This document shows, piece by piece, positions 49,623 through 64,000 of a stretch of 64,000 nucleotides of DNA. The DNA comes from Azoarcus indigens (GTDB lineage: Bacteria > Pseudomonadota > Gammaproteobacteria > Burkholderiales > Rhodocyclaceae). The stretch lies in the NCBI RefSeq assembly GCF_004361735.1, contig NZ_SNVV01000010.1, forward strand, positions 62,001 to 126,000, written 5' to 3'. Position 1 is the stretch's first letter. Each line of letters starts with the position of its first letter. Below the pieces are notes generated by a model that searched no databases, had not been told where the DNA came from, and was given only the letters and a program-made list of their open reading frames with translations. A program made the translations under genes and the position numbers.

Positions 49623-50012
49623 TTACCTGTTGCCCCACAGTGCCGTGAAATCGAACGACAGCTGCCGCTGATGCCGGATGGAGAGCAGATAGACCGTCTG
49701 TTTGCCGTGGGTATACAGCAGCAAATAGTTCGCCATCACGTATTCACGGATCTCGCCGTCCGTCGCGATTCCCTTCAGCTGCGCGGTGAGACGCTCCTGG
49801 AGTGTCACCGCTTCCACCGAGTTGCCCGGACGTTGCAGAAAAGAGCGTCCCATGGCCGGAAAGCGCTTCAAATTGGGAATGACGGTGCCGCCCAGTTCGT
49901 CCAGCAAGGTATCGAAGGCCTGGGGCGCTTCGGCGTCGGCAAGGAAGCGCTCTATTTCCTCCAGATTGCGCTCGAAGTTCGCGGTGAGTTCGACGCGGAG
50001 TACGGCGGTCAT
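49623..50012 (-). CDS. ParE/RelE-superfamily toxin
   Basis: A 129-residue protein of the RelE/ParE plasmid-stabilisation fold: VELTANFERNLEEIERFLAD, LKRFPAMGRSF, VMANYLLLYTHGKQTVYLLSIRHQRQL in separate parts. Toxins of this fold cut mRNA on the ribosome (RelE) or poison gyrase (ParE); the sequence does not settle which. It lies 15 nt downstream of its antitoxin gene. It is somewhat longer than the 90-100 residues usual for the family. Confidence 0.85.
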   Translation of the reverse strand: MTAVLRVELTANFERNLEEIERFLADAEAPQAFDTLLDELGGTVIPNLKRFPAMGRSFLQRPGNSVEAVTLQERLTAQLKGIATDGEIREYVMANYLLLYTHGKQTVYLLSIRHQRQLSFDFTALWGNR

Positions 50013-50027
50013 GGGGCGGGAGGCTGT

Positions 50028-50330
50028 TCAGCCGGCCGACTTGTTTGCGCGGCGCCGCTTCAGTGCGGCAATTGCCGTCTCCGCATCCTTTGTGCGACCT
50101 GCGGCGACGTCGGCCAAGCCCTTGCTGGCCTCGTCGAGAAGAAGCAGGTGAATGCGCTCGCGCTCGAGGCGGTGGTAGTAGTCCAGCCGCTCGGCGTCGA
50201 TCAGCGCGACATAGCTCTCGCCATTCTTGGTGATGATCTTCTCGGCACCAGCCTTCACTTGGTCGGCCAGGTCGGAGAGGTTCGCCCGGGCCTGGGAAAG
50301 CGGGATGACATCGCGGGCCGAAATGGCCAT
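50028..50330 (-). CDS. Phd/YefM-family antitoxin
   Basis: A 100-residue antitoxin. The N-terminal DNA-binding part reads VIPLSQARANLSDLADQVKAGAEKIITKNGESYVALID, the Phd/YefM pattern; the C terminus is the helical toxin-binding region. The ATG at 50330 (MAISARDV) has a ribosome site inside GGAGATCTCC; an upstream in-frame start adds 11 residues across the operator. It precedes the toxin in one transcript and should repress its own promoter at the 50345-50362 palindrome. Confidence 0.88.
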   Translation of the reverse strand: MAISARDVIPLSQARANLSDLADQVKAGAEKIITKNGESYVALIDAERLDYYHRLERERIHLLLLDEASKGLADVAAGRTKDAETAIAALKRRRANKSAG

Positions 50331-50344
50331 GGAGATCTCTCCGA

Positions 50345-50362
50345 TGTACAGAATTCTGCACA
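50345..50362. promoter_or_regulatory. Palindromic operator of the toxin-antitoxin operon
   Basis: TGTACAGAATTCTGCACA is an inverted repeat with one mismatch, 14 nt upstream of the antitoxin ATG. A second palindrome, GGAGATCTCC (50331-50340), overlaps the ribosome site. Both suit autoregulation by the antitoxin. Confidence 0.7.
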
Positions 50363-50364
50363 TA

Positions 50365-51051: not shown

Positions 51052-51966
51052 TCATCTGTCGCCCAGGGCCTTCAGAACGTATTCGATGAAGACGCGCACT
51101 TTCAATGGCATGTGTCGGTTGCCGGGGTAGATCAACGAGAAGGGGCGCGAGCGCCCGGCAAATGGCGTGAGCAATTCGACGAGCGCGCCGCTCCGCAGGT
51201 CGTCCTCGACGATGAAGCGGTAGGTCTGCACCAGGCCGGCTCCCGCACGCGCCAGGGTGGCGACACCCAGCAGATCTTCGGAACAGGTGTAGCTGCCATC
51301 GGTGACGACATCGAGGTCCTGCCCGTCCTGGCGGAATGCCCAAGGCACGCGCTGGCCAGTGCTGGGCAAGACGAACTGTATGCACTCATGCCGCGCCAGA
51401 TCCTCCAGGGCAGCGGGTGTCCCGGCATGGGCCAGGTATCCCGGCGCGGCCACCACCACCAGTGGGGCATCCATCAGCTTGCGCGCGACCAGGCCCGAGT
51501 CGGGCTGCGCGCGAGCGCGCACCGCCAGGTCGAAGCCCTCCGCGGTGAAGTCGATATTGCGATTGCTCAGCTGCACGTCGATCCGCACCTGCGGGTATTG
51601 CTTGCGAAAGCCCGGAAGCAGGCGCAGCAATCCATGGTGCCCCAGCGTGGTGGGGACGCTGATGCGAACCACGCCTGCCGGCGCGGCCTGCCGCCCTGTC
51701 AGTTCGCGTTCGGCCTCAAGCAACTGGTCGAGGGCTTGCTTGCACTGCGCGAAATAGGCGCGCCCGCCGTCCGTCAGGCGGACCTTGCGCGTGTTGCGCA
51801 CGAACAGCCGCACTTGCAGACGCTCCTCCAGCCGGCCGATTGCCCGGCTGACGGCTGCCGGTGTCAGGCCCGCCTGGGCCGCGGCGCCGGTGAAGCTCTC
51901 CAGCTCCGCTGCCAGGCAGAACAGCTCGATGCTGCCGATCATCACATCGCTGAATTGCCTGGCCAT
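51052..51966 (-). CDS. LysR-type transcriptional regulator
   Basis: A 304-residue LysR regulator of the large CrgA/AaeR-like branch, with helix-turn-helix SFTGAAAQAGLTPAAVSRAI at about 24-43 and the effector domain after 90 (GVVRISVPTTLGHHGLLRLLPGF). It diverges across 102 bp from the flavodoxin-tautomerase-NTF2 genes, which it most likely controls. The ATG gives a standard N terminus. Confidence 0.93.
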   Translation of the reverse strand: MARQFSDVMIGSIELFCLAAELESFTGAAAQAGLTPAAVSRAIGRLEERLQVRLFVRNTRKVRLTDGGRAYFAQCKQALDQLLEAERELTGRQAAPAGVVRISVPTTLGHHGLLRLLPGFRKQYPQVRIDVQLSNRNIDFTAEGFDLAVRARAQPDSGLVARKLMDAPLVVVAAPGYLAHAGTPAALEDLARHECIQFVLPSTGQRVPWAFRQDGQDLDVVTDGSYTCSEDLLGVATLARAGAGLVQTYRFIVEDDLRSGALVELLTPFAGRSRPFSLIYPGNRHMPLKVRVFIEYVLKALGDR

Positions 51967-52068: not shown

Positions 52069-52623
52069 ATGACATCTTCCGTTTCGATCGTCTTTCATAG
52101 TGGCCATGGTCATACGGCGAAAGTCGCCCAGGCCGTAGCCGAAGGCTGCGACGCCACGCTGCTCGCCATAGACGAGCATGGCTGCCTGCCACCCGCAGGC
52201 TGGGAGCAACTGGCCGCGGCGCGCGCCATCGTGTTCGGCTCGCCCACCTACATGGGCAGCGTGAGCTGGCAGTTCAAGAAATTCATGGACGCCAGTTCGT
52301 CCGTCTGGGCAAGGCAAGGCTGGAAGGACAAGCTCGCCGCGGGTTTCACCAACAGTGCGGGCATCAACGGCGACAAGCTCGCCACGCTGCACACGTTTTT
52401 CACCCTGTCGCAGCAGCACGGCATGCTTTGGGCGGGCACCGGCATGATGCCGAGCAACGCGAAGGCGGCGCGGCGGGGTGACGTCAATTACCTGGCTTCA
52501 TTTGCGGGATTGATGACCGCCACTCCGGTGGACGCCACGCCTGACGAGATGATCGCTGGCGACCTGGACACCGCGCGGCTGTTTGGCCGGCGGATTGCCG
52601 ACGTTGTCCGTCGCATGAACTGA
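52069..52623 (+). CDS. Flavodoxin-fold NAD(P)H-dependent oxidoreductase, WrbA-like
   Basis: A 184-residue flavodoxin-like protein. The FMN phosphate loop is SIVFHSGHGHTAKVAQAV, followed by VFGSPTYMGSVSWQFKKFMD and FTNSAGINGDK, as in WrbA and related quinone reductases. It probably reduces quinones or other electrophiles with two electrons. It is the first gene of a three-gene unit with the tautomerase (10 bp downstream) and an NTF2-like protein, under the divergent LysR. Confidence 0.88.
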   Translation: MTSSVSIVFHSGHGHTAKVAQAVAEGCDATLLAIDEHGCLPPAGWEQLAAARAIVFGSPTYMGSVSWQFKKFMDASSSVWARQGWKDKLAAGFTNSAGINGDKLATLHTFFTLSQQHGMLWAGTGMMPSNAKAARRGDVNYLASFAGLMTATPVDATPDEMIAGDLDTARLFGRRIADVVRRMN

Positions 52624-52633
52624 CGAAAGCGCC

Positions 52634-52837
52634 ATGCCCTACGTGAACATCAAAGTGACGCGAGAAGGCGTCACGCGCGAGCAGAAGGCGGCGCTGATAG
52701 CCGGCGTGACGGAGCTGCTGCTCCAGGTGCTGGGAAAGAGCCCCGCGCTGACGCATGTCGTGATCGAGGAGGTGGAACTCGACAACTGGGGACTGGGCGG
52801 TTTGTCCGTTACAGCGTTCCGGGAGCAAAACCGATGA
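52634..52837 (+). CDS. 4-oxalocrotonate tautomerase family protein
   Basis: A 67-residue tautomerase-superfamily protein. Pro1 (after Met removal, PYVNIKV) is the general base; REQKAALIAGVTELLLQVLG and HVVIEEVELDNWGLGG follow the family pattern, with the usual length of about 62-70. It isomerises enol/keto forms; the real substrate is unknown. Its stop overlaps the next start by 4 nt (ATGA), so translation is coupled. Confidence 0.93.
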   Translation: MPYVNIKVTREGVTREQKAALIAGVTELLLQVLGKSPALTHVVIEEVELDNWGLGGLSVTAFREQNR

Positions 52838-53217
52838 CGACCAGAAGCGATTTTGCCGATGTGGCTGCGGTGCTCGGCGATTACTTCGCCGGCCTGCACC
52901 ACAGCGACACCGCCCTCCTGAAACGTGCGTTTCACCCCGAGGCACACTATTTCTGCGCCACCACGGGGACTTTGCAGCATCTGGACATGGCCCGGTATTT
53001 CCCCATCGTCGACAACCGGCCCTCACCGGCCAGCCAGGGGCACCCGCCGGCTGACCGCATCCTCGCCATCGAGTTTGCGGGTCCGGTCACCGCCTTCGTG
53101 AAGGCGGAATGCGCCATCCCGCCCAGGTTCTTCACCGACTTTCTGACCTTGGTCAAGCTCGGTGGCCGCTGGCAGATCATCAGCAAGGTCTTCCACTACG
53201 AGCTTGAAAACGGCTAG
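52834..53217 (+). CDS. NTF2-like protein, putative lumazine-binding type
   Basis: A 127-residue alpha+beta-barrel protein: VLGDYFAGLHHSDTALLKRAFHPEAHYF and FFTDFLTLVKLGGRWQIISKVFHYE match the Lumazine_bd_2/SnoaL-like NTF2 fold. Such proteins bind or isomerise small ligands, and many are uncharacterised. It is translationally coupled to the tautomerase. Downstream 124 bp are non-coding before the convergent cytochrome fusion. Confidence 0.85.
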   Translation: MTTRSDFADVAAVLGDYFAGLHHSDTALLKRAFHPEAHYFCATTGTLQHLDMARYFPIVDNRPSPASQGHPPADRILAIEFAGPVTAFVKAECAIPPRFFTDFLTLVKLGGRWQIISKVFHYELENG

Positions 53218-53341: not shown

Positions 53342-56300
53342 TCAGTGGACGCCGCCTTTCCGCAAGCGCGCCACCGTTTCCGCCAGCCCCTGCCAGGCCG
53401 GCTTGTCCGGCGCGAAGCGGGCGCGCAGGTAGGCGCTGAGGTCGGCGATCTGGCGGTCGTCCAGGCTGGCGGCGAAGCCGGGCATGTAGCCGAGGTCGCC
53501 GTGGGCGGGGGACTGGATGCCGTGCAGGATGATCTGCACCAGGTTGTCCGGGTGCGGGCTGTGCAGGTTGCTGTTGAGCGCCAGCTCGGGTTTCACGCCG
53601 AACAGGTCCGGGCCGTTCTCCTGGTGGCAGGCGGCGCAGGCGCCGTCATAGAGGCTCTCGGCCGGGCCGGCGAGGGTGAGGGCGGCGGCCTGGGCGCGTT
53701 GTTGCAGGGCGTTGGCGTAGCCGCTGGCGGTGGCCGGGGTGGGCGCGGCCTTGGCGTGTGAGGCGAGGTAGGTGGCGATGGCGCGGATGTCGCTGTCCGG
53801 CAGGGCGGCGAGGGATTCGACCACCGGCGCCATCGGGCCGGAGGCGACGCCGTGCTGCGGCGAGTAGCCGTGGCGCAGGTAGTCGTAGAGCGCGCTCTCG
53901 GTCCACGGCACCGGGGCGTGGGAGAGGGCGTTGAGCGGCGGTGCTTCCCAGCCTTCGGCGAAGGCGCCGGCGTAGCGGTGTTCGCCGCTTTTCTCGGCGC
54001 CGAGGGCGTTGCGCGGGGTGTGGCAGGCGCCGCAGTGGCCTGCGCCTTCGACCAGGTAGGCGCCGCGGTTCCATTCGGCGGAGCGCGCCGGGTCGGGCTG
54101 GAAGGGGCTGGGGTCGTGGTACAGCAGCTTCCAGCCGGCCAGCGCCGGGCGCAGGCTGTAGGGGAAGGCCAGCCTGGTTTCCGGCGCCTTGGCCTTCACC
54201 GCCGGCTGCGCCATCAGCCAGGCGTAGAGCGCCTGCATGTCGTCGGCGCTGAGTTTGGCGTAGGCGGTGTAGGGGAAGGCGGGGTAGAGGTGGCGGCCAT
54301 CACGGTGGATGCCGTGGCGCATGGCGCGCTCGAAGGCGGCGTAGGACCAGTTGCCGATGCCGGTTTCCGGGTCGGGGGTGATGTTGGTGGTGTAGATGAT
54401 GCCGAAGGGCGTCTCCAGCGCCAGGCCGCCGGCCAGCGGCGCGCCGTCTGCGGTGGTGTGGCAGACGGCGCAGTCGCCGGCGGCGGCGACCAGTTCGCCA
54501 CGGGCGAGGGTGGCGGCGGAGTAGAGATCGGCCGCCGGTGGCGCCACCGGGGCGATGGGCGCGCGCCAGGGCAGGGCGGTGGCAAGGGTGGCGGCGGCTG
54601 CCGCAGCGGCGGCGCCCAGCCAGCCCAGCTTGCGCTTGTTGCTCGCCTTGACGGCGGCACCGTTGCGCGCTTCCAGCGCGAGGCGGATGCGCTCGGCGGT
54701 GAAGGGCGGCGCATCCAGGCGCACGCCGGTGGCGTCGTGAATGGCGTTGGCGACGGCGGCGGCGGCCGGCAGCAGGGTGGCGCCGGTGCCGGCGAGGCGG
54801 GGTTCCGGCATGGCGGGCAGGGACTGGGCGGCGGGCGGCTCGGTGCCGAGCAGGGCGGCGTTGAGCAGCGCGATTTCGCCGGGCGCGGCGGGTACGGCGG
54901 TGGCCGGCCAGTCGTCGAAAGCGGTGGCTGGCTCGGCGCTGAGCAGGCGGCCGGTGGTGTCGGCGATGGCTTGGCGCATGCCGCCGTGGTCCAGCGCGCC
55001 GGCATCGCTGCCGACGAGGACGCGGCTGACGGCGACTTCGCCGCTGCGGGGATCGACGGCGACTTCGGCCATCCAGGCGGCCCAGGCGTCCTTGTGGGCG
55101 TCGATGGCGGCGGCGTCCAGCGTGTGCTGCGGATCGTTCTCCCAGGCGGCTTCGCTGACATGGGCGCAGGCATAGCCGCGGCCGCGCAGCAGGGCATCGT
55201 CGCTGGCGGGGGCCGGGCCGGCCTGCTCGCCGAGGCGGCGCAGCAGGGTGGCGCCGCGCTCGTCCTCCAGCCGCTGCAGGCGGTATGCCAGCGGATCGGC
55301 GCCAGCGGCGCGGGCGGCTTCGTCGATGAAGGATTCCTGGGCGAAGACCTGGCCGGGCAGGCCGGGGTCGTGGGCGGCGGGCGGGCGCGGGCTGACCACG
55401 GCCGCGGTGCTGGCGAGGCGCAGGGCGGCGGCGCGGTAGGGCGGCGGCAGCACCGTGGCGGGCTGGGCGGCTTCGGCGGTCGGCGAGCCGACGCCGGCCA
55501 GGCGCAGAGCCGGCAGCAGCGGAGTCTGCGCGGGCGGCAGGGTGGTGTGGCGGTAGCTGGCGAAGCGGGCGGCGGCGTCGGGGCCGGCTTCGTCCGCTGC
55601 TTCGATGCGGCTTTCCTGCGCGCCGGCGAGGGCGGCGCTCCAGCGCAGTTCGGCTTGGCCCAGCGTGACCAGCACCGGCCGGCCCAGGCGCTGGGCGAGC
55701 AGGGCGGCGTCGGCGGCGGCGTGTTCGGTCCAGGGGCTGCGGCCGGCGGGGGCGGGCAGGCCTTGGGGGGCGAGCGCGGCGGGGTCCAGCACCTGCACCC
55801 GTGCCGGCGGCAGGCCGGTGAGGGCGGCGATCTCCAGCGTCAGGGCGCGCGGCGCGCGGGCGCGGGCCCAGAGGTGGAGTTCGCCATCCACCAGCGCGGC
55901 ACAGGCGTTGGCGCTTTCTTCCGCCAGCGGCGGCAGCGCCGGCCAGCGGTAGCTGCGGCTGAGCTTGTTCGCCGCGCTGGCGGCGGCGGTGTCGCCGTGT
56001 TCGTAGACCACGTTTTCCCGCGCCGGCAGCGGCTGCGGCGCCGGGCGGCTTTCCCAGCGCGCCTTGAGCTGGCGGGCGGCGCGGGTGGCGGCCTCGGTGG
56101 TGGTGGCGACCACGGCGACGAAATCGCCGCGCGCCACCACGTCGACCACGCCTTCAATGGCGGCGACCGAGGCCGCCTCCACCGCCAGCAGGCGGCGCGG
56201 CCGCAGGCTGGCGCCTTCGCCATCCAGTGGTGGGCGGACGACGCGGGCATGGAGCAGGCCGCTTCCGCCGACGTGCTCCGCGCTCCCGCCGGCAAAGGGG

Positions 56301-56413
56301 ATGGCCGCAATGGCGGCGCCGGGGCTGCCGGCAACGAGGGCGGATGCGGCGGTGCCCGCGTTCGCGGCGGATTCGTCCGGGGGGCTGGCCGTGGCGGGGG
56401 GCGGGGTGGTCAC
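53342..56413 (-). CDS. nicB: NicB-type protein: degenerate molybdopterin domain fused to a triheme cytochrome c
   Basis: A 1023-residue fusion. Residues about 51-582 align by eye with the molybdopterin subunit family of xanthine dehydrogenase, as in NicB of nicotinate dehydrogenase, but the segment with GHVDLGTG is absent and the central AGCYGRN..DD motif has become APAGRSPWTEH (221-231). At the C-terminal GxGE site the glutamate is Ala545. One membrane helix (about 596-615) precedes three hemes: CAVCH 648-652, CGACH 794-798, CAACH 926-930. The cytochrome part should pass electrons to the respiratory chain. GTG start 56413 is uncertain. Downstream of nicA by 143 bp. Confidence 0.85.
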   Translation of the reverse strand: MTTPPPATASPPDESAANAGTAASALVAGSPGAAIAAIPFAGGSAEHVGGSGLLHARVVRPPLDGEGASLRPRRLLAVEAASVAAIEGVVDVVARGDFVAVVATTTEAATRAARQLKARWESRPAPQPLPARENVVYEHGDTAAASAANKLSRSYRWPALPPLAEESANACAALVDGELHLWARARAPRALTLEIAALTGLPPARVQVLDPAALAPQGLPAPAGRSPWTEHAAADAALLAQRLGRPVLVTLGQAELRWSAALAGAQESRIEAADEAGPDAAARFASYRHTTLPPAQTPLLPALRLAGVGSPTAEAAQPATVLPPPYRAAALRLASTAAVVSPRPPAAHDPGLPGQVFAQESFIDEAARAAGADPLAYRLQRLEDERGATLLRRLGEQAGPAPASDDALLRGRGYACAHVSEAAWENDPQHTLDAAAIDAHKDAWAAWMAEVAVDPRSGEVAVSRVLVGSDAGALDHGGMRQAIADTTGRLLSAEPATAFDDWPATAVPAAPGEIALLNAALLGTEPPAAQSLPAMPEPRLAGTGATLLPAAAAVANAIHDATGVRLDAPPFTAERIRLALEARNGAAVKASNKRKLGWLGAAAAAAAATLATALPWRAPIAPVAPPAADLYSAATLARGELVAAAGDCAVCHTTADGAPLAGGLALETPFGIIYTTNITPDPETGIGNWSYAAFERAMRHGIHRDGRHLYPAFPYTAYAKLSADDMQALYAWLMAQPAVKAKAPETRLAFPYSLRPALAGWKLLYHDPSPFQPDPARSAEWNRGAYLVEGAGHCGACHTPRNALGAEKSGEHRYAGAFAEGWEAPPLNALSHAPVPWTESALYDYLRHGYSPQHGVASGPMAPVVESLAALPDSDIRAIATYLASHAKAAPTPATASGYANALQQRAQAAALTLAGPAESLYDGACAACHQENGPDLFGVKPELALNSNLHSPHPDNLVQIILHGIQSPAHGDLGYMPGFAASLDDRQIADLSAYLRARFAPDKPAWQGLAETVARLRKGGVH

Positions 56414-56556
56414 GGGGCGGGTTCTCTCGTCGGCGGCCGGGCGGCGTCTTTGCGCCGCGCCATTATCGTTGGGGTGTGCGGGGCTTGCTGTTGCAGGCGG
56501 GATGCGCTGCTGGCGCGGTCATCGCGGGGAACGGTATTACGCGCGCCATCGCCGGT

Positions 56557-57177
56557 TCAACCGCGGATCAGGGGGCCCGCCAGCACGGTATCCACCGTGG
56601 CTGTCGTTGCCGTTTCCGGCACTGGCGCGCGGGCTGCGTCCGCCGTCGCACAGCCGGTGGAGGCAGGGCTAGGCGCGGCGGCGGACGCACGGGCGGCGCG
56701 GCGCTGGCCTTCCAGTTCCACCGCGCGGCGGGCGGAGGCGAGGATTTCGAGGTGGGTGCCGCAGCGGCACAGGTTGCCGCGCAGCTCGCGGCGGATGTCG
56801 GCTTCGTCCGCCTCGGGTTTGCGGTTGAGCAGGGCGCGCACCGTCATGATCATGCCGTTGAGGCAGTAGCCGCACTGGGCGCCCTGGCATTCGATGAAGG
56901 CTTGCTGCACCGGGTCGGGCGCGGCGAGGTCGCCCAGGCCTTCCAGGGTGGTGATCTCGCGCTGGCCGAGGCCGCCCACCGGCAGGATGCAGGCACGCGC
57001 GGCGCGGCCATCCACCAGCACGGTACAGGCGCCGCATTCACCCAGGCCACAGCCGTACTTCGGGCCGTTGAGGCCAAGGTCGTTACGCAGGGCGTAGAGC
57101 AGCGGGGCGTCCGGGCTCAGCAGCAACTGGTGTTCGCTGCCGTTGACCCGCAGGGCGATCTGCTTTGGGGCGGACAT
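56557..57177 (-). CDS. nicA: Nicotinate dehydrogenase small (2Fe-2S) subunit NicA
   Basis: A 206-residue iron-sulfur subunit of the molybdenum hydroxylase family, taking electrons from the molybdenum centre. The first cluster motif is YGCGLGECGACTVL with a later Cys; the second is CGYCLNG...CRCGTH. The C-terminal 45 residues are an Ala/Thr-rich extension. The ATG at 57177 (MSAPKQIALRVNG) gives the family N terminus; the frame continues upstream without similarity. It lies between nicC and the cytochrome fusion on one strand. Confidence 0.93.
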   Translation of the reverse strand: MSAPKQIALRVNGSEHQLLLSPDAPLLYALRNDLGLNGPKYGCGLGECGACTVLVDGRAARACILPVGGLGQREITTLEGLGDLAAPDPVQQAFIECQGAQCGYCLNGMIMTVRALLNRKPEADEADIRRELRGNLCRCGTHLEILASARRAVELEGQRRAARASAAAPSPASTGCATADAARAPVPETATTATVDTVLAGPLIRG

Positions 57178-57278: not shown

Positions 57279-58536
<1,258 letters not shown>

Positions 58537-58675: not shown

Positions 58676-58695
58676 AATAATGTATGCACTATAAT
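58676..58695 (+). promoter_or_regulatory. nicE promoter -10 box overlapping a second operator-like site
   Basis: A perfect -10, TATAAT (58690-58695), overlaps a site whose right arm CACTATA (58687-58693) is identical to that of the nicC-side palindrome; the left arm AATAATG matches 5 of 7. The -35 is weak. The leader to nicE is about 187 nt. The 445-bp gap 58437-58881 holds no gene. Confidence 0.7.
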
Positions 58696-58881
58696 CAGTC
58701 CTGCCTGGGGGATGCTTTTGCGGCATGCCCGGGCATGGAGATCGGGGCACGTTCCGGTGATTCGCGGCTGTGGCCGGCGGATGGCGGAGACGATGTAATC
58801 AGCTGTCATCCCCTGGTGGATGGCGCCAAAACCCCCGGCCCGGCGCCTGAAGCGCACTCAACCCAACAGACGGAGTCCGCA

Positions 58882-59637
58882 GTGAAGAAGACCAGCTATC
58901 GCATCGGCCAGATCGTGCCGAGCTCCAACACCACCATGGAAACCGAGATCCCGGCGATGCTGATGGCGCGCCAGGCCGTGCGCCCGGAGCGCTTCACCTT
59001 CCACTCCAGCCGCATGCGGATGAAGACGGTGAAGAAGGAAGAGTTGGCGGCGATGGATGCCGAGTCCGACCGCTGCGCAGTGGAGCTTTCCGACGCCCGC
59101 GTCGACGTGCTGGGCTACGCCTGCCTGGTGGCCATCATGTCCATGGGCAAGGGCTACCACTGCGTGTCCGAAAAGCGTTTGAAGGAACGCACCGCCGACA
59201 ACGGCGGCCTGGCCCCGGTGGTGACCAGCGCCGGGGCGCTGGTGGATGCGCTGAAGGTGATGGGCGCGAAGAAGATCGCGCTGGTGGCGCCCTACATGAA
59301 GCCGCTCACCGAACTGGTGGTGGATTACATCGCCGACCAGGGCTTCGAGGTGATCGACTACCGCGCGCTGGAAATCGCCGACAACCTGGAAGTCGGTCTG
59401 CACGACCCGGCCAGGCTGCCGGACATCGTCGCTGGCATGAACTACCAGGATGCGGACGTGATCGTGCTCTCCGCCTGCGTGCAGATGCCCTCGCTGCCGG
59501 CGGTGCCCAAGGTGGAAGCGATGACTGGCAAGCCGGTGGTCACCGCCGCCATCGCCACCACCTACGCCATGCTGAACAAGCTGGAGCTGGAGCCCTTCGT
59601 GCCGGGCGCCGGCGCGCTGCTCTCCGGCGCCTACTGA
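58882..59637 (+). CDS. nicE: Maleate isomerase NicE
   Basis: A 251-residue Asp/Glu-racemase-fold enzyme that isomerises maleate to fumarate, the last step of the nicotinate pathway. Catalytic cysteines are Cys81 (GYACLVAIMSMG) and Cys199 (VLSACVQMPSLP), one residue off the P. putida numbering. GTG at 58882 follows CGGAG and gives the family N terminus (KKTSYRIGQIVPSSNTTME). It heads nicE-nicD-nicX-nicF, diverging from nicC. Confidence 0.95.
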   Translation: MKKTSYRIGQIVPSSNTTMETEIPAMLMARQAVRPERFTFHSSRMRMKTVKKEELAAMDAESDRCAVELSDARVDVLGYACLVAIMSMGKGYHCVSEKRLKERTADNGGLAPVVTSAGALVDALKVMGAKKIALVAPYMKPLTELVVDYIADQGFEVIDYRALEIADNLEVGLHDPARLPDIVAGMNYQDADVIVLSACVQMPSLPAVPKVEAMTGKPVVTAAIATTYAMLNKLELEPFVPGAGALLSGAY

Positions 59638-59651
59638 GCGGGGGCGCAACG

Positions 59652-60473
59652 ATGAGCACCTTCCAGTACGGCGGCAACGTGTTCGCCAATGGCATCCGCC
59701 AGCACTACCTGCGCTACGGCGGCGCCGGCGAGGGCAGGGCGGCGCGTCCGCCGGTCATCATCATCCCCGGCATCACCAGCCCGGCCATCACCTGGGGCTT
59801 CGTCGGCGAGCGCTTCGGCCGGACCTACGACACCTACATCCTCGACGTGCGCGGCCGCGGCCTGTCCGAAGCCTCGGCCACGCTGAACTACAGCCTGGAC
59901 GCCCAGGCCGACGACGTGCTCGCCTTCGCCGCCGCGCTCGGCCTCAGCAACTACATCCTGGTCGGCCACTCCATGGGCGGGCGCATCGCCTTCCGCGCCG
60001 CCCGCAGCCGGCCGGCGGCGCTGGCCAAGGTGGTGGCGGTGGATCCGCCGGTGTCCGGCCCCGGCCGCCGCGCCTACCCGGCCAAGCTGCCGTGGTACGT
60101 GGATTCCATCGCGCTGGCCAGCCGCGGCACCGACAAGGAAGGCATGCGCGCCTTCTGCCCGACCTGGACCGACGAGCAACTGCAGCTGCGCGCCGAGTGG
60201 CTGCACACCTGCGACGAGCGTGCCATCCGCGAGAGCTTCGACGGCTTCCACACCGACGACATCCACCAGGATCTGCCGGAGATCACCGTGCCGGTGCTGC
60301 TGCTGCTCGCCGGCCGCGGCGACGTGGTGCTGGATGCCGACGTGGAAGAGATCCGCGGCCTGCTGCCGGACGTGCAGGCTGTGCGCGTGCCCAACGCCGG
60401 CCACATGATTCCCTGGGACGACGAAGAAGGCTTCTACCGCGCCTTCGGCGACTTCCTCGGCCAGCCGCTGTAA
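59652..60473 (+). CDS. nicD: N-formylmaleamate deformylase NicD
   Basis: A 273-residue alpha/beta hydrolase that removes the formyl group from N-formylmaleamate. The catalytic triad fits Ser107 (GHSMGG), Asp131 (VAVDPPVSG) and His251 (NAGHMIPWDD), each offset by 6 from the P. putida enzyme. ITSPAITWGF holds the oxyanion region. It starts 14 bp after nicE and precedes nicX by 102 bp. Confidence 0.94.
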   Translation: MSTFQYGGNVFANGIRQHYLRYGGAGEGRAARPPVIIIPGITSPAITWGFVGERFGRTYDTYILDVRGRGLSEASATLNYSLDAQADDVLAFAAALGLSNYILVGHSMGGRIAFRAARSRPAALAKVVAVDPPVSGPGRRAYPAKLPWYVDSIALASRGTDKEGMRAFCPTWTDEQLQLRAEWLHTCDERAIRESFDGFHTDDIHQDLPEITVPVLLLLAGRGDVVLDADVEEIRGLLPDVQAVRVPNAGHMIPWDDEEGFYRAFGDFLGQPL

Positions 60474-60575: not shown

Positions 60576-61619
60576 ATGGCAATCAGCGACCACGAACTGA
60601 TCCAGGCCTGGAAAGAAGTGCTGACGCTGTCGAAGCTGGAACCCGGCCAGACCGTCACCGTGCTCACCAGCGCCGCTACCCACCCGCAGACGCTGTCCAC
60701 CGCGCTTACCGCCGCCGCCATGCTGGGCGCGGTGGTCAACCGGCTGGACCTGCAACCGGTCAACGGCGAAAAGGCGCTGAGCCGCGATTCCCTCGCCTAC
60801 CTCGGCACCACCCCGCTCACCGGCAACAAGGCGGCCATCGCCGCGCTCAAGGCCAGCGACCTGGTGCTGGACCTGATGACCCTGCTGTTCTCGCCGGAGC
60901 AGCACGAAATCCTCGCCGCTGGCACCAAGATCCTGCTCGCCGTCGAGCCGCCGGAAGTGCTCGCCCGCATGGTGCCCACGCTGGCCGACCGCGCCCGCGT
61001 GCTGCGCGCCACCGCGAAGATCGAGAAGGCGAAGACGATGCGGGTGGTTTCCGCCGCCGGCACCGAGCTCACCTGCCCCATGGGCGAATTCCCCGCCATC
61101 GCCGAATACGGCTTCTGCGACACCCCGGGGCGCTGGGACCACTGGCCCAGCGGCTTCGCCCTCACTTGGCCGAACGAGAAGCAGACCCAGGGGACCATCG
61201 TCATCGACCGCGGCGACATCCTGCTGCCGATGAAGCGCTACGTCGCCGAGCCCATCACCATCACGGTGAAGGACGGCTTCGCCCAATCCATCACCGGCGG
61301 TGTGGATGCCGAGCTGCTGGCCGAGTACATGGAGTCCTTCAAGGATCCCGAGGCCTACGCCATTTCCCACATCGGCTGGGGCCTGCAGCCGCGTGCCAGC
61401 TGGACCACGCTGGCGCTGTACGACCGCGAAGCCACCATAGGCATGGACGCGCGCGCCTTCGAGGGCAACTTCCTGTTCTCGCTCGGCCCCAACAACGAGG
61501 CCGGCGGCAGCCGCAGCACCACCTGCCACATCGACATCCCGCTGCGCAAATGCACCGTGAGCCTGGACGGCGAAGAGGTGGTGCGCGTCGGCAAGGTGCT
61601 GGACCAGGGCCAGGAGTAA
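60576..61619 (+). CDS. nicX: 2,5-dihydroxypyridine 5,6-dioxygenase NicX
   Basis: A 347-residue extradiol-type, iron(II)-dependent ring-opening dioxygenase producing N-formylmaleamate. The iron ligands are His265 (SHIGWG), His318 and Asp320 (CHIDIPL), the same numbers as in P. putida NicX. Length also agrees. A GGAG-type site precedes the ATG. The stop is 4 nt before the nicF ATG, so the two are tightly coupled. Confidence 0.96.
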   Translation: MAISDHELIQAWKEVLTLSKLEPGQTVTVLTSAATHPQTLSTALTAAAMLGAVVNRLDLQPVNGEKALSRDSLAYLGTTPLTGNKAAIAALKASDLVLDLMTLLFSPEQHEILAAGTKILLAVEPPEVLARMVPTLADRARVLRATAKIEKAKTMRVVSAAGTELTCPMGEFPAIAEYGFCDTPGRWDHWPSGFALTWPNEKQTQGTIVIDRGDILLPMKRYVAEPITITVKDGFAQSITGGVDAELLAEYMESFKDPEAYAISHIGWGLQPRASWTTLALYDREATIGMDARAFEGNFLFSLGPNNEAGGSRSTTCHIDIPLRKCTVSLDGEEVVRVGKVLDQGQE

Positions 61620-61623
61620 GAGC

Positions 61624-62241
61624 ATGAGCGACGAAATCCGCACCTACGAGAAGCAGGGCTTTGGCAACACCCTGGAGCCCAAGCCGCCCTACGGCCTGCT
61701 CATCATCGACTTCGTGAATGGCTTCGCCGACCCGGAGGTGTTCGGCGGCGGCAACATTCCGCAGGCCATAGAACGCACCAAGGAGGCGCTGGCGCTGGCG
61801 CGCGAGCGCGGCTGGCCGGTGGCGCACAGCCGCATCGTCTTCGCCGACGACGCCGCCGACCGCAACATCTTCGCCCTCAAGGTGCCGGGCATGGCCACGC
61901 TGTCGGAAGACAACCCCAATAGCGCCATCGTCCCCGAACTGGCGCCGGCCGCCGGTGAGCTGGTGGTGCGCAAGACCGTGCCCTCCGCCTTCTTCGCCAC
62001 CGGCCTTGCGCCCTGGCTCACCCAGAAGGGCGTGCAGACCCTGCTGGTGGCCGGCTGCGTCACCAGCGGCTGCGTGCGCGCCAGCGTGGTGGATGCCATG
62101 TGCTGGGGCTTCCGCCCGCTGGTGCTGGAAGACTGCGTGGGCGACCGCGCCCTCGGCCCGCACGAAGCCAACCTGTTCGACATGCGGCAGAAGTACGCCG
62201 CGGTGATGACGCTGGACGAGGCGCGGCGGGCGATTGGGTGA
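61624..62241 (+). CDS. nicF: Maleamate amidohydrolase NicF
   Basis: A 205-residue isochorismatase-like amidase that hydrolyses maleamate to maleate and ammonia. The catalytic triad is Asp29 (LIIDFVNGF), Lys117 (VRKTVPSAF) and Cys150 (AGCVTSGCVRAS). It is the last gene of the nicEDXF unit, followed by a 253-bp gap with hairpins before the molybdopterin subunit gene. Confidence 0.95.
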   Translation: MSDEIRTYEKQGFGNTLEPKPPYGLLIIDFVNGFADPEVFGGGNIPQAIERTKEALALARERGWPVAHSRIVFADDAADRNIFALKVPGMATLSEDNPNSAIVPELAPAAGELVVRKTVPSAFFATGLAPWLTQKGVQTLLVAGCVTSGCVRASVVDAMCWGFRPLVLEDCVGDRALGPHEANLFDMRQKYAAVMTLDEARRAIG

Positions 62242-62494: not shown

Positions 62495-64000
62495 ATGATC
62501 GAACACGGCCCCACGCCCAAGGATTTCCGCCAGGCCCTGCTGGACTCGGACGACAGCCTGCTGGTGCTGCGTCCGCCCCAGGCGGCGGCGCGGCCTGCGC
62601 CCGGGCAACCCGGCGTGGTGTCGGACTACGTGCCCGCCCTGCCGGACATCTTCATCGCGGTGCGCGGCGATGGCAGCGTGCTGGCCTTCAACGGCCACGT
62701 CGATCTCGGCACCGGCATCCGCACCGCCCTCGGCCAGCTGGTGGCGGAGGAGCTGGACGCGGAGCTCGGCCGCGTCAGCGTCATGCTCGGCCATACGGAG
62801 GCGGCGCCCAACCAGGGGCCGACCATCGCCAGCTCCACCATACAGATCAGCGCCATGCCGCTGCGCCGCGCCGCCGCCCAGGCGCGCGCCTGGCTGCTGG
62901 CGCGCGCGGCGCAGCGCCTGGGCGTGGCGGAAGAAGCGGTGGCGGTGGCGGACGGCGCCTTCTTCTGCCCGGCCGAGCCCGGCCGCCGCCTGGGCTACGC
63001 CGAGCTGCTGGCCGGCGAGCGGGTGCGGCTGGAGGTGGCGGCGGAATTCCCGCTCAAGCCCGCCAGCGCCCACAAGCTGGTCGGCCGCAGCACGCCGCGG
63101 GTGGACATCCCGGCCAAGGCCACCGGCGCGCTTACCTTCGTGCATGACATGCGCCTGCCCGGCATGCTGCACGGCCGGGTGGTGCGACCGCCCTATGCCG
63201 GCATCGACTGCGGCGATTTCGTCGGCCGCAGCCTGGTGAAGGTGGACCGCGACTCGGTGCGCGGCCTGCCGGGGCTGGTGGACGTGGTGGTGATCGGCGA
63301 CTTCGTCGGCGTCGTCGCCGAGCGCGAGGAGCAGGCCATCGCCGCGATGAAGGCGCTGAAGGTGGAATGGCGGCTGCCGGCGCTGCCGGCGCTGGACGAC
63401 GTCGAAGCCGCCATCCGCGCCATTCCGGCGGTGCGCCGGCCGCTGCGGGAAGAGGGCGACACCGATGCCGCCCTCGCCGCCGCGCCGGCGGTGCTGGCGC
63501 GCAGCTACGTCTGGCCCTACCAGATGCACGGCTCCATCGGCCCCTCCTGTGCGCTGGCCGACTACCGCGAGGGCGGGCTCACCGTCTGGTCCGGCACGCA
63601 GAACCCGCACATGCTGCGGGTGGACCTCGCCCGCCTGCTGCAGGTGGACGAGGGCGGCATCGAGGTGGTGCGGATGGAAGCCGCCGGCTGCTACGGCCGC
63701 AACTGCGCCGACGACGTGGGGGCCGACGCCGCGCTGCTGTCGCGCGCGGTCGGCCGGCCGGTGCGGGTGCAGCTGAGCCGCGAGCAGGAGCACGCCTGGG
63801 AACCCAAGGGCGCCGGCCAGCTGATGGACGTGAAGGGCGCGGTGGATGCCGCCGGCAATCTCGCCGCCTATGACTTCGTTGCCCGCTACCCCTCCAACGA
63901 TGCGCCGCTGCTGGCGCTGCTGCTCACCGGCGCCCTGGACCCCGCGCCACGCATGCTGGAGATGGGCGACCGCACCGCGGTGCCGCCCTACGCCTATCCC
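62495..64000 (+). CDS. Xanthine-dehydrogenase-family molybdopterin subunit, NicB-like (cut by window edge)
   Basis: The first 502 residues of a molybdopterin-binding large subunit, open to the right edge. Intact hallmarks include GHVDLGTG (67-74), HGRVVRPP (226-233), GPSCALADY (349-357), NPHMLR (370-375) and AGCYGRNCADD (397-407), the pattern of the nicotinate dehydrogenase/isoquinoline oxidoreductase group. It resembles the part that the cytochrome fusion has lost or let decay, so it is the best candidate for the catalytic molybdenum subunit working with NicA. The C-terminal catalytic glutamate is beyond the window. The ATG has a weak GGATCGCAAG upstream. Confidence 0.88.
   Translation, partial: MIEHGPTPKDFRQALLDSDDSLLVLRPPQAAARPAPGQPGVVSDYVPALPDIFIAVRGDGSVLAFNGHVDLGTGIRTALGQLVAEELDAELGRVSVMLGHTEAAPNQGPTIASSTIQISAMPLRRAAAQARAWLLARAAQRLGVAEEAVAVADGAFFCPAEPGRRLGYAELLAGERVRLEVAAEFPLKPASAHKLVGRSTPRVDIPAKATGALTFVHDMRLPGMLHGRVVRPPYAGIDCGDFVGRSLVKVDRDSVRGLPGLVDVVVIGDFVGVVAEREEQAIAAMKALKVEWRLPALPALDDVEAAIRAIPAVRRPLREEGDTDAALAAAPAVLARSYVWPYQMHGSIGPSCALADYREGGLTVWSGTQNPHMLRVDLARLLQVDEGGIEVVRMEAAGCYGRNCADDVGADAALLSRAVGRPVRVQLSREQEHAWEPKGAGQLMDVKGAVDAAGNLAAYDFVARYPSNDAPLLALLLTGALDPAPRMLEMGDRTAVPPYAYP

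Follow-up and report, generated by a model that had tools for sequence, protein, structure and literature searches.

A degenerate molybdenum hydroxylase domain joined to a triheme cytochrome in a nic gene cluster of Azoarcus indigens

In NicB of P. putida, a single chain carries both a complete molybdenum (Mo) domain and three hemes. A 64,000-nucleotide stretch of the Azoarcus indigens genome (contig NZ_SNVV01000010.1, positions 62,001 to 126,000; called the window here and numbered from its first letter) encodes a NicB2-type fusion of 1023 amino acids (53342..56413, (-) strand) that consists of a degenerate Mo-hydroxylase domain, a hydrophobic helix and three c-type hemes and has homologues in 14 other loci. 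The same nic cluster contains NicB1, a stand-alone Mo subunit of 755 amino acids (62495..64000, continuing to 64762 beyond the window, (+) strand) in which the three motifs GHVDLGTG, GCYGRN and GAGE are intact; such a separate, intact subunit was part of the original prediction, which had been made from the window alone.

Hydroxylases split into NicA, NicB1 and NicB2 have already been named for B. gladioli and Bordetella (PMC10269826) and for Delftia acidovorans Cs1-4 (PMC4572682), and the gene order given for Delftia in passages of the latter, nicB2-nicA-nicC-nicE-nicD-nicX-nicF-nicB1, is also the order of the window. It is by gene order and partners (nicA, nicC and the following genes, nicB1) that we liken the window to this tripartite hydroxylase, not by published NicB2 sequences. 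The system itself is known; within this open-licence literature, its dead domain appears so far unremarked: passages of PMC10269826, PMC4572682, PMC6837509, PMC10331938, PMC5746545 and PMC9304392 do not describe a degenerate Mo domain in NicB2, and those of PMC5484106 contain none of the relevant terms.

Anatomy of the fusion and loss of Mo motifs

The degenerate domain covers residues 51-582 (54668..56263, (-)), without the N-terminal MoCoBD_2 part. Hydropathy places the hydrophobic helix at residues 598-614 (54572..54622, (-)), with a net charge of +5 before and 0 after it, and CxxCH heme motifs follow on the same strand at residue 648 (54458..54472), residue 794 (54020..54034) and residue 926 (53624..53638). 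This agrees with the original prediction, which had a frame of 1023 codons with three intact hemes and the triheme cytochrome placed after the degenerate domain. Pfam identifies MoCoBD_1 at residues 133-213 (E 9.9e-9) and two cytochrome c families. Residues 606-1017 match 8gy3_A, the triheme subunit of the Gluconobacter aldehyde dehydrogenase (E 5.6e-111): with three CxxCH motifs and homology over about 400 residues, the fusion has the features of a triheme cytochrome subunit of the ALDH/FDH/ADH type. Its first ~50 residues are unconserved (the ratio of nonsynonymous to synonymous substitution rates, dN/dS, is 1.37 in comparison with genome G086) and the start codon is uncertain.

The open frame is weak evidence for a gene at this position, because the antisense strand is also open for 1005 codons (window 53852-56869 (+), probably spurious). 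The fusion is regarded as a real gene because of purifying selection at the codon level, the heme and homology matches and the recurrence in 15 loci of two orders. That it is a chimera, a frameshift or an assembly error is practically out of the question: the odd architecture is all that would suggest it, and the same architecture is found in 15 loci, with the neighbourhood kept and with purifying selection; a chance frame or artefact was rejected on this recurrence.

Aligned with NicB1, the fusion has 37-38% identity across the shared part, which extends from about residue 220 of NicB1 to the end of the domain; the start had been expected further upstream, at about residue 180. HARVVRPP and FIDEAARAAGADPLAYRL are both present in the fusion, GHVDLGTG is absent and the central GCYGRN.CADD motif is replaced in the alignment by APAGRSPWTEH (residues 221-231; 55721..55753, (-)), all as predicted. 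The Glu of GxGE has a catalytic role. An Ala had been proposed at its place, but the window has Gly544 in this column (54782..54784, (-)), with an Ala adjoining (GAGES aligned with AGTGA); an Ala in the column itself is found in the Herbaspirillum homologue. Mo-cofactor motifs elsewhere in the fusion were ruled out, and a different oxidoreductase family does not fit, as profile and predicted fold both match Mo-hydroxylase large subunits.

The final alignment contains 24 intact chains in addition to the fusions. Chains were sorted in the scripts by GHVDLGTG and three CxxCH, hence GHVDLGTG is present in 24/24 intact chains by construction and, because the classes were set by this very motif, only the loss of the whole N-terminal segment counts as a result. 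This segment is missing from 14/14 assessable fusions, with 3-29 residues left before NicB1 position 200 in comparison to about 200 in intact chains. GCYGRN and GxGE are found in 24/24 intact chains. The GCY motif is found in 0/14 assessable fusions and a Glu in the catalytic column in 0/15 (L131 has a gap; L131 and L147 have a Glu nearby, in a poorly aligning loop). The predicted loss of the motifs of a working Mo domain (central motif, catalytic Glu, N-terminal segment) is borne out, and the domain is probably catalytically dead. Compared with large subunits of the xanthine oxidase family, the fusion has sequence and fold homology and lacks the N-terminal segment, GCYGRN and the catalytic Glu; compared with fused NicB of the P. 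putida type, it has the hemes and an incomplete Mo domain. The four fusions of the second order (L131, L147, L148, L149) keep GR..DD of the central motif, indicating decay at different stages.

Column conservation was counted for 9 fusions and 20 intact chains (L127, L131 and L147-L149 were left out, as was the G130 fusion, which is cut by a contig end and also omitted from the trees). There are 199 shared columns with conservation in 19/20 intact chains or more: 57 of them persist in 7/9 fusions or more, 100 in at most two and 53 in none. The N-terminal part has 54 conserved columns, and not one persists in seven or more fusions. Among hydrophobic columns conserved in the family, 37/72 persist in at least 7/9 fusions; among polar ones, 10/83 do (Fisher p 1e-7). 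Conservation mainly among the fusions is seen for 14 columns. Because hydrophobic columns are kept over polar ones and fusion-specific columns exist, the loss is not random; a domain that had lost catalysis and retained its core would look like this. The GR..DD remnant of the four second-order homologues could mean that cofactor or substrate binding persists in the domain, or that the domain assists NicB1 in acquiring its molybdenum cofactor. We consider this very improbable: the cofactor-binding N-terminal segment and the catalytic Glu are missing throughout, and the 53 columns kept in no fusion argue in the same direction.

Selection, predicted fold and topology of the degenerate domain

dN/dS was calculated by the Nei-Gojobori method with codon bootstraps for one close pair (344 domain codons) and two distant pairs. 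Between the window genome (G000) and G130, the closest pair, dN/dS is 0.33 (0.22-0.49) for the domain, 0.10 for its own cytochromes, 0.083 for the intact Mo chain and 0.28 for NicA. The corresponding values for G000 and G086 are 0.76 (0.64-0.96), 0.34, 0.22 and 0.31, and those for G426 and G495, where NicA was not included, are 0.41 (0.32-0.51), 0.12 and 0.21. The degenerate domain is under relaxed purifying selection, not free, and the predicted retention of the domain is in line with a dN/dS below 1 for each of the three pairs. The constraint varies along the domain. Residues 546-582 (54668..54778, (-)), which adjoin the hydrophobic helix, are the most conserved segment of the domain (dN/dS 0.06 with G130 and 0.14 with G086, many columns kept in 9/9 fusions); in a second conserved segment, residues 351-420 (QVFAQESFIDEAARAAGADPLAYRL...; 55154..55363, (-)), dN/dS is 0.18 with G130 and 0.60 with G086 and columns are kept; residues 226-350 and 471-545 have values of 0.33-1.46.

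The domain could be a passive remnant or linker that is slowly eroding, in a frame that stays open since the needed cytochrome lies downstream. Its branches are much longer than those of the cytochrome, its dN/dS is higher, it has large indels and some stretches at dN/dS near or above 1, and much of the hammerhead motif is gone from the Caballeronia/G412 branch. All this would be expected of a relic; we nevertheless regard a relic as unlikely, given the upper bound of 0.49 in the closest pair and the low values of residues 546-582, the conservation of the hydrophobic core and of fusion-specific columns across lineages, and the recurrence of the NicB1-fusion pair in 7/8 genomes that were reached independently via NicX. 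Because the arrangement recurs in many nicotinate clusters, the dead part is probably not junk but a means of holding the enzyme together.

A model of residues 1-588 has a mean predicted local distance difference test score (pLDDT) of 65.7 and a predicted template modelling score (pTM) of 0.67. VIA-align superimposes model residues 50-585 on residues 229-771 of 8gy3_C (Z 21.6, root mean square deviation (rmsd) 4.6, 436 residues aligned), and profile searches match 5g5h_C (E 2.3e-26) and 8gy3_C (E 8.1e-19). The degenerate domain is thus predicted to keep the Mo-subunit fold, which is support, not proof. Mo-hydroxylase large subunits often dimerise, and NicB2 might take the place of one protomer, so that the NicB1-NicB2 dimer would be asymmetric, one half being active and the other dead. 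The core fold predicted over residues 50-585 and the fact that each of 15 clusters pairs a single fusion gene with a single stand-alone intact chain are compatible with such a dimer; the conserved polar columns, however, are largely lost, and we hold it to be quite improbable.

By hydropathy, a hydrophobic helix lies between domain and heme 1 in 12/12 fusions computed and in seven intact fused chains, always with more positive charge before than after it, and the same helix is visible by eye in L147-L149. As c-type hemes are attached outside the cytoplasm and the helix lies in between, the degenerate domain is probably cytosolic, on the side also expected for NicA and NicB1. This topology is a puzzle common to fusions and intact fused chains, with the Mo-type domain before and the hemes after one helix with a positive N-terminal side: if the helix is membrane-spanning, the electrons of a cytosolic iron-sulphur (FeS) protein have to reach hemes across the membrane.

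Distribution, phylogeny and the nic cluster

The 15 loci with the fusion are the window, Herbaspirillum sp. CF444 (L048), Caballeronia insecticola plasmid p1 (L099/L100) and the genomes G086, G130, G601, G527, G426, G495, G612, G412, G1044, G1054, G1087 and G1146. Within the genus, 3/4 genomes have it, and in a family sample of 297 genomes it was identified in the same three genus genomes only (another genome of this sample, G004, has an intact Mo-plus-triheme chain). Seven fusions were identified among 399 genomes of the order (G000, G412, G426, G495, G527, G601, G612), one outside the order among 369 genomes of the class at E <= 1e-60 (G1044) and four among 120 genomes of the second order (G1044, G1054, G1087, G1146). 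The scan of named genomes gave three loci; among the 30 listed of 157 plasmid records, C. insecticola (H2) was the one followed up. All counts of architectures are lower bounds, as few candidates were scored per genome (three in the order and class searches) and weaker matches were inspected in part; seven further order matches with frames of more than 1000 amino acids include no Mo-heme fusion.

Three architectures were found: an intact Mo-triheme chain (7 loci), a Mo chain with a separate triheme gene (L096, L097, L155) and a Mo chain with the degenerate-domain fusion (15 loci). Among these, nic genes were seen only with the degenerate-domain fusion. In 15/15 fusion loci, the cluster also contains nicC and a stand-alone, intact Mo chain (in G130 on two contigs, via the Mo contig), and nicA lies directly upstream of the fusion in 14/14 loci where that side is visible; nicE was not found in L088 nor nicX in L149, and in L148 only nicA and nicC were found. 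L155 (G665), with separate triheme, FeS and Mo genes in a row, is a three-gene cousin with a free cytochrome.

NicX was the query of the only search independent of the degenerate domain. It matches 13/399 order genomes at E <= 1e-60, eight at 70% identity or more and five at 34-40%, and the pair of NicB1 and fusion is present in 7/8 genomes with a close NicX. What had appeared as an oddity beside NicB of P. putida is therefore the usual form in the order sampled. Seven intact Mo-triheme chains (L046, L089-L094) have a nicA-like gene adjoining, and nicC, nicE, nicD, nicX and nicF are absent from 7/7 of their 16-kb stretches; they would be NicB-like enzymes. That they are the order's local nicotinate enzyme was rejected, as NicX was found at E <= 1e-60 in 0/6 order genomes with an identified intact Mo-cytochrome fusion (the seventh such genome, G004, was checked over a 16.3-kb contig only). 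For the same reason, their direct kinship with the nic ancestor is weaker than first assumed.

In the tree of the domain, the fusions form one clade (99/98 with 14 rows; 100/100 with 8 rows) on long branches. In the cytochrome tree, a strong branch (100/100) separates the two free cytochromes from the fusions and the fused chains. The fusion adjoins nicA, which suggests that it keeps the old nicB place and that NicB1 is a relocated copy.

In the window, the nicA-like gene (56557..57177, (-)), encoding a protein of 206 amino acids with two [2Fe-2S] domains and the start MSAPKQ, ends 143 bp upstream of the fusion on the same strand and is preceded by a nicC-like gene for an FAD monooxygenase (57279..58493, (-); Pfam FAD_binding_3, all NCBIfam matches under the cut-offs). 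The opposite strand carries, in addition to the intact Mo gene, genes for a nicE-like maleate isomerase (58684..59637, (+); a weak NCBIfam match), a nicD-like deformylase of the alpha/beta hydrolase type (59652..60473, (+); NCBIfam under the cut-off), a nicX-like dioxygenase (60576..61619, (+); no NCBIfam match, relatives found) and a nicF-like amidohydrolase (61624..62241, (+); NCBIfam under the cut-off). NCBIfam gives no match above cut-offs for the window nic genes tested, and the names follow the gene order of Delftia and, in part, what we take to be the usual assignments. NicB1 aligns over almost its whole length with 8gy3_C, a Mo subunit (residues 43-743 with 49-762, E 5e-48); no heme motif was found in it, nor, by hydropathy, an N-terminal hydrophobic helix. 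Beside the nic cluster are genes of the FMN-reductase/flavodoxin-like, lumazine-binding-like and LysR regulator types (window 52069-53217 (+) and 51052-51966 (-), by Pfam), and at window 49623-50363 (-) two small adjoining genes resemble, by eye, a RelE/antitoxin pair.

Proposed role and comparison with known enzymes

We propose to identify the fusion as NicB2, which would serve a three-protein nicotinate hydroxylase as its electron-transfer subunit. In this enzyme, NicB1 would hold the molybdenum site and hydroxylate nicotinate, and electrons would pass from NicB1 to the two [2Fe-2S] clusters of NicA and on to NicB2 with its three hemes. A complete Mo domain would be the ancestor of the N-terminal half of NicB2, probably via duplication of a gene with both parts: one copy may have lost the cytochrome tail and become NicB1, while the other, beside nicA, may have lost its first ~220 residues and the molybdopterin motifs and kept the core of the fold; the order of these events is our suggestion. 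The dead domain would have been retained as the docking site that links NicA and/or NicB1 to the membrane-anchored cytochrome; a docking scaffold had also been suggested in the original prediction and is plausible. Taken as a whole, we judge this explanation to be reasonably probable. The anatomy, the missing motifs, the single clade, the regular presence of intact NicB1 and nicC and the purifying selection are read from the sequences; duplication, loss of catalysis, membrane topology, docking and the electron route are conjectural.

A number of results weigh against it. Foldseek matches the domain model to 8gy3_C with an E of 4.2e-21, but with a TM-score of only 0.51 and an rmsd of 9.9; 2/5 input sequences of the model are intact Mo chains, which pull it towards the Mo-subunit fold, and a model of the full-length fusion has a pLDDT of 41. 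MoCoBD_1 of Pfam is reached by 4/10 homologous degenerate domains. The dN/dS of 0.76 between G000 and G086 would fit slow decay too, as would the fast stretches (residues 121-350 and 471-545) and the large indels. In the trees, NicB1 and the intact fused chains fit equally well as sister of the fusion clade (approximately unbiased (AU) test, p 0.32 each), and the fusion cytochromes are not recovered as one group. Since the domain itself served as the query for the fusions, nic clusters with a bare cytochrome would be missed. Two-gene forms with a free cytochrome do exist (L096, L097, L155), thus a docking domain is not required by every related enzyme. Finally, G392, the eighth order genome with a close NicX, has two nicE-D-X-F clusters on one contig (L150 and L151; nicX 78% identical), and the 20-kb stretches around both contain no nicB1, no nicB2 and no close nicC match (one has a 39% nicC relative); the upper nicotinate pathway of this genome differs or lies elsewhere, and its lower pathway would be fed by something else.

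Pseudoenzyme domains that act as regulators or scaffolds are well known in kinases and proteases. We know of none described in molybdenum hydroxylases, and the one search aimed at them in open-licence literature gave two articles about aldehyde oxidase mutants. It is possible, and we put this forward tentatively, that nicotinate hydroxylases in two or more orders rely on a subunit that is a pseudoenzyme: a fused Mo-cytochrome gene would have been duplicated, one copy turning into the catalyst and the other into a dead Mo domain. The latter would by now be an indispensable adaptor that pairs with NicA/NicB1 on the cytosolic side and passes electrons to hemes across the membrane. The parts list of this enzyme is already known; a conserved pseudoenzyme domain in a Mo hydroxylase would come as a surprise to specialists. 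Where such NicB2 genes are annotated as molybdenum-related, catalytic activity should not be assumed. The intact fused chains, the Mo chains with a free cytochrome and the Mo chains with a dead-domain cytochrome are a natural matched set, with which the electron path from a Mo/FeS enzyme to c-type hemes, and the part of the Mo domain that it needs, become testable.

Like NicB of P. putida, the fusion of the window has a Mo-type domain, a hydrophobic helix and three hemes in one chain; unlike in P. putida, the Mo domain is truncated and has lost its motifs, and an intact Mo chain is encoded separately. In Gluconobacter oxydans, the membrane-bound aldehyde dehydrogenase (8gy3) has a triheme subunit that matches the fusion and a Mo subunit that is colinear with NicB1, but these are separate subunits, and its cytochrome chain of 444 residues has no room for a Mo-type domain. 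The nicotinate dehydrogenase 3hrd, which we take to be from Eubacterium, acts on the same substrate and has its Mo part distributed over two chains. In the Eubacterium enzyme, the two Mo chains complete one active site, whereas in the window NicB1 has both halves and NicB2 has none of the motifs.

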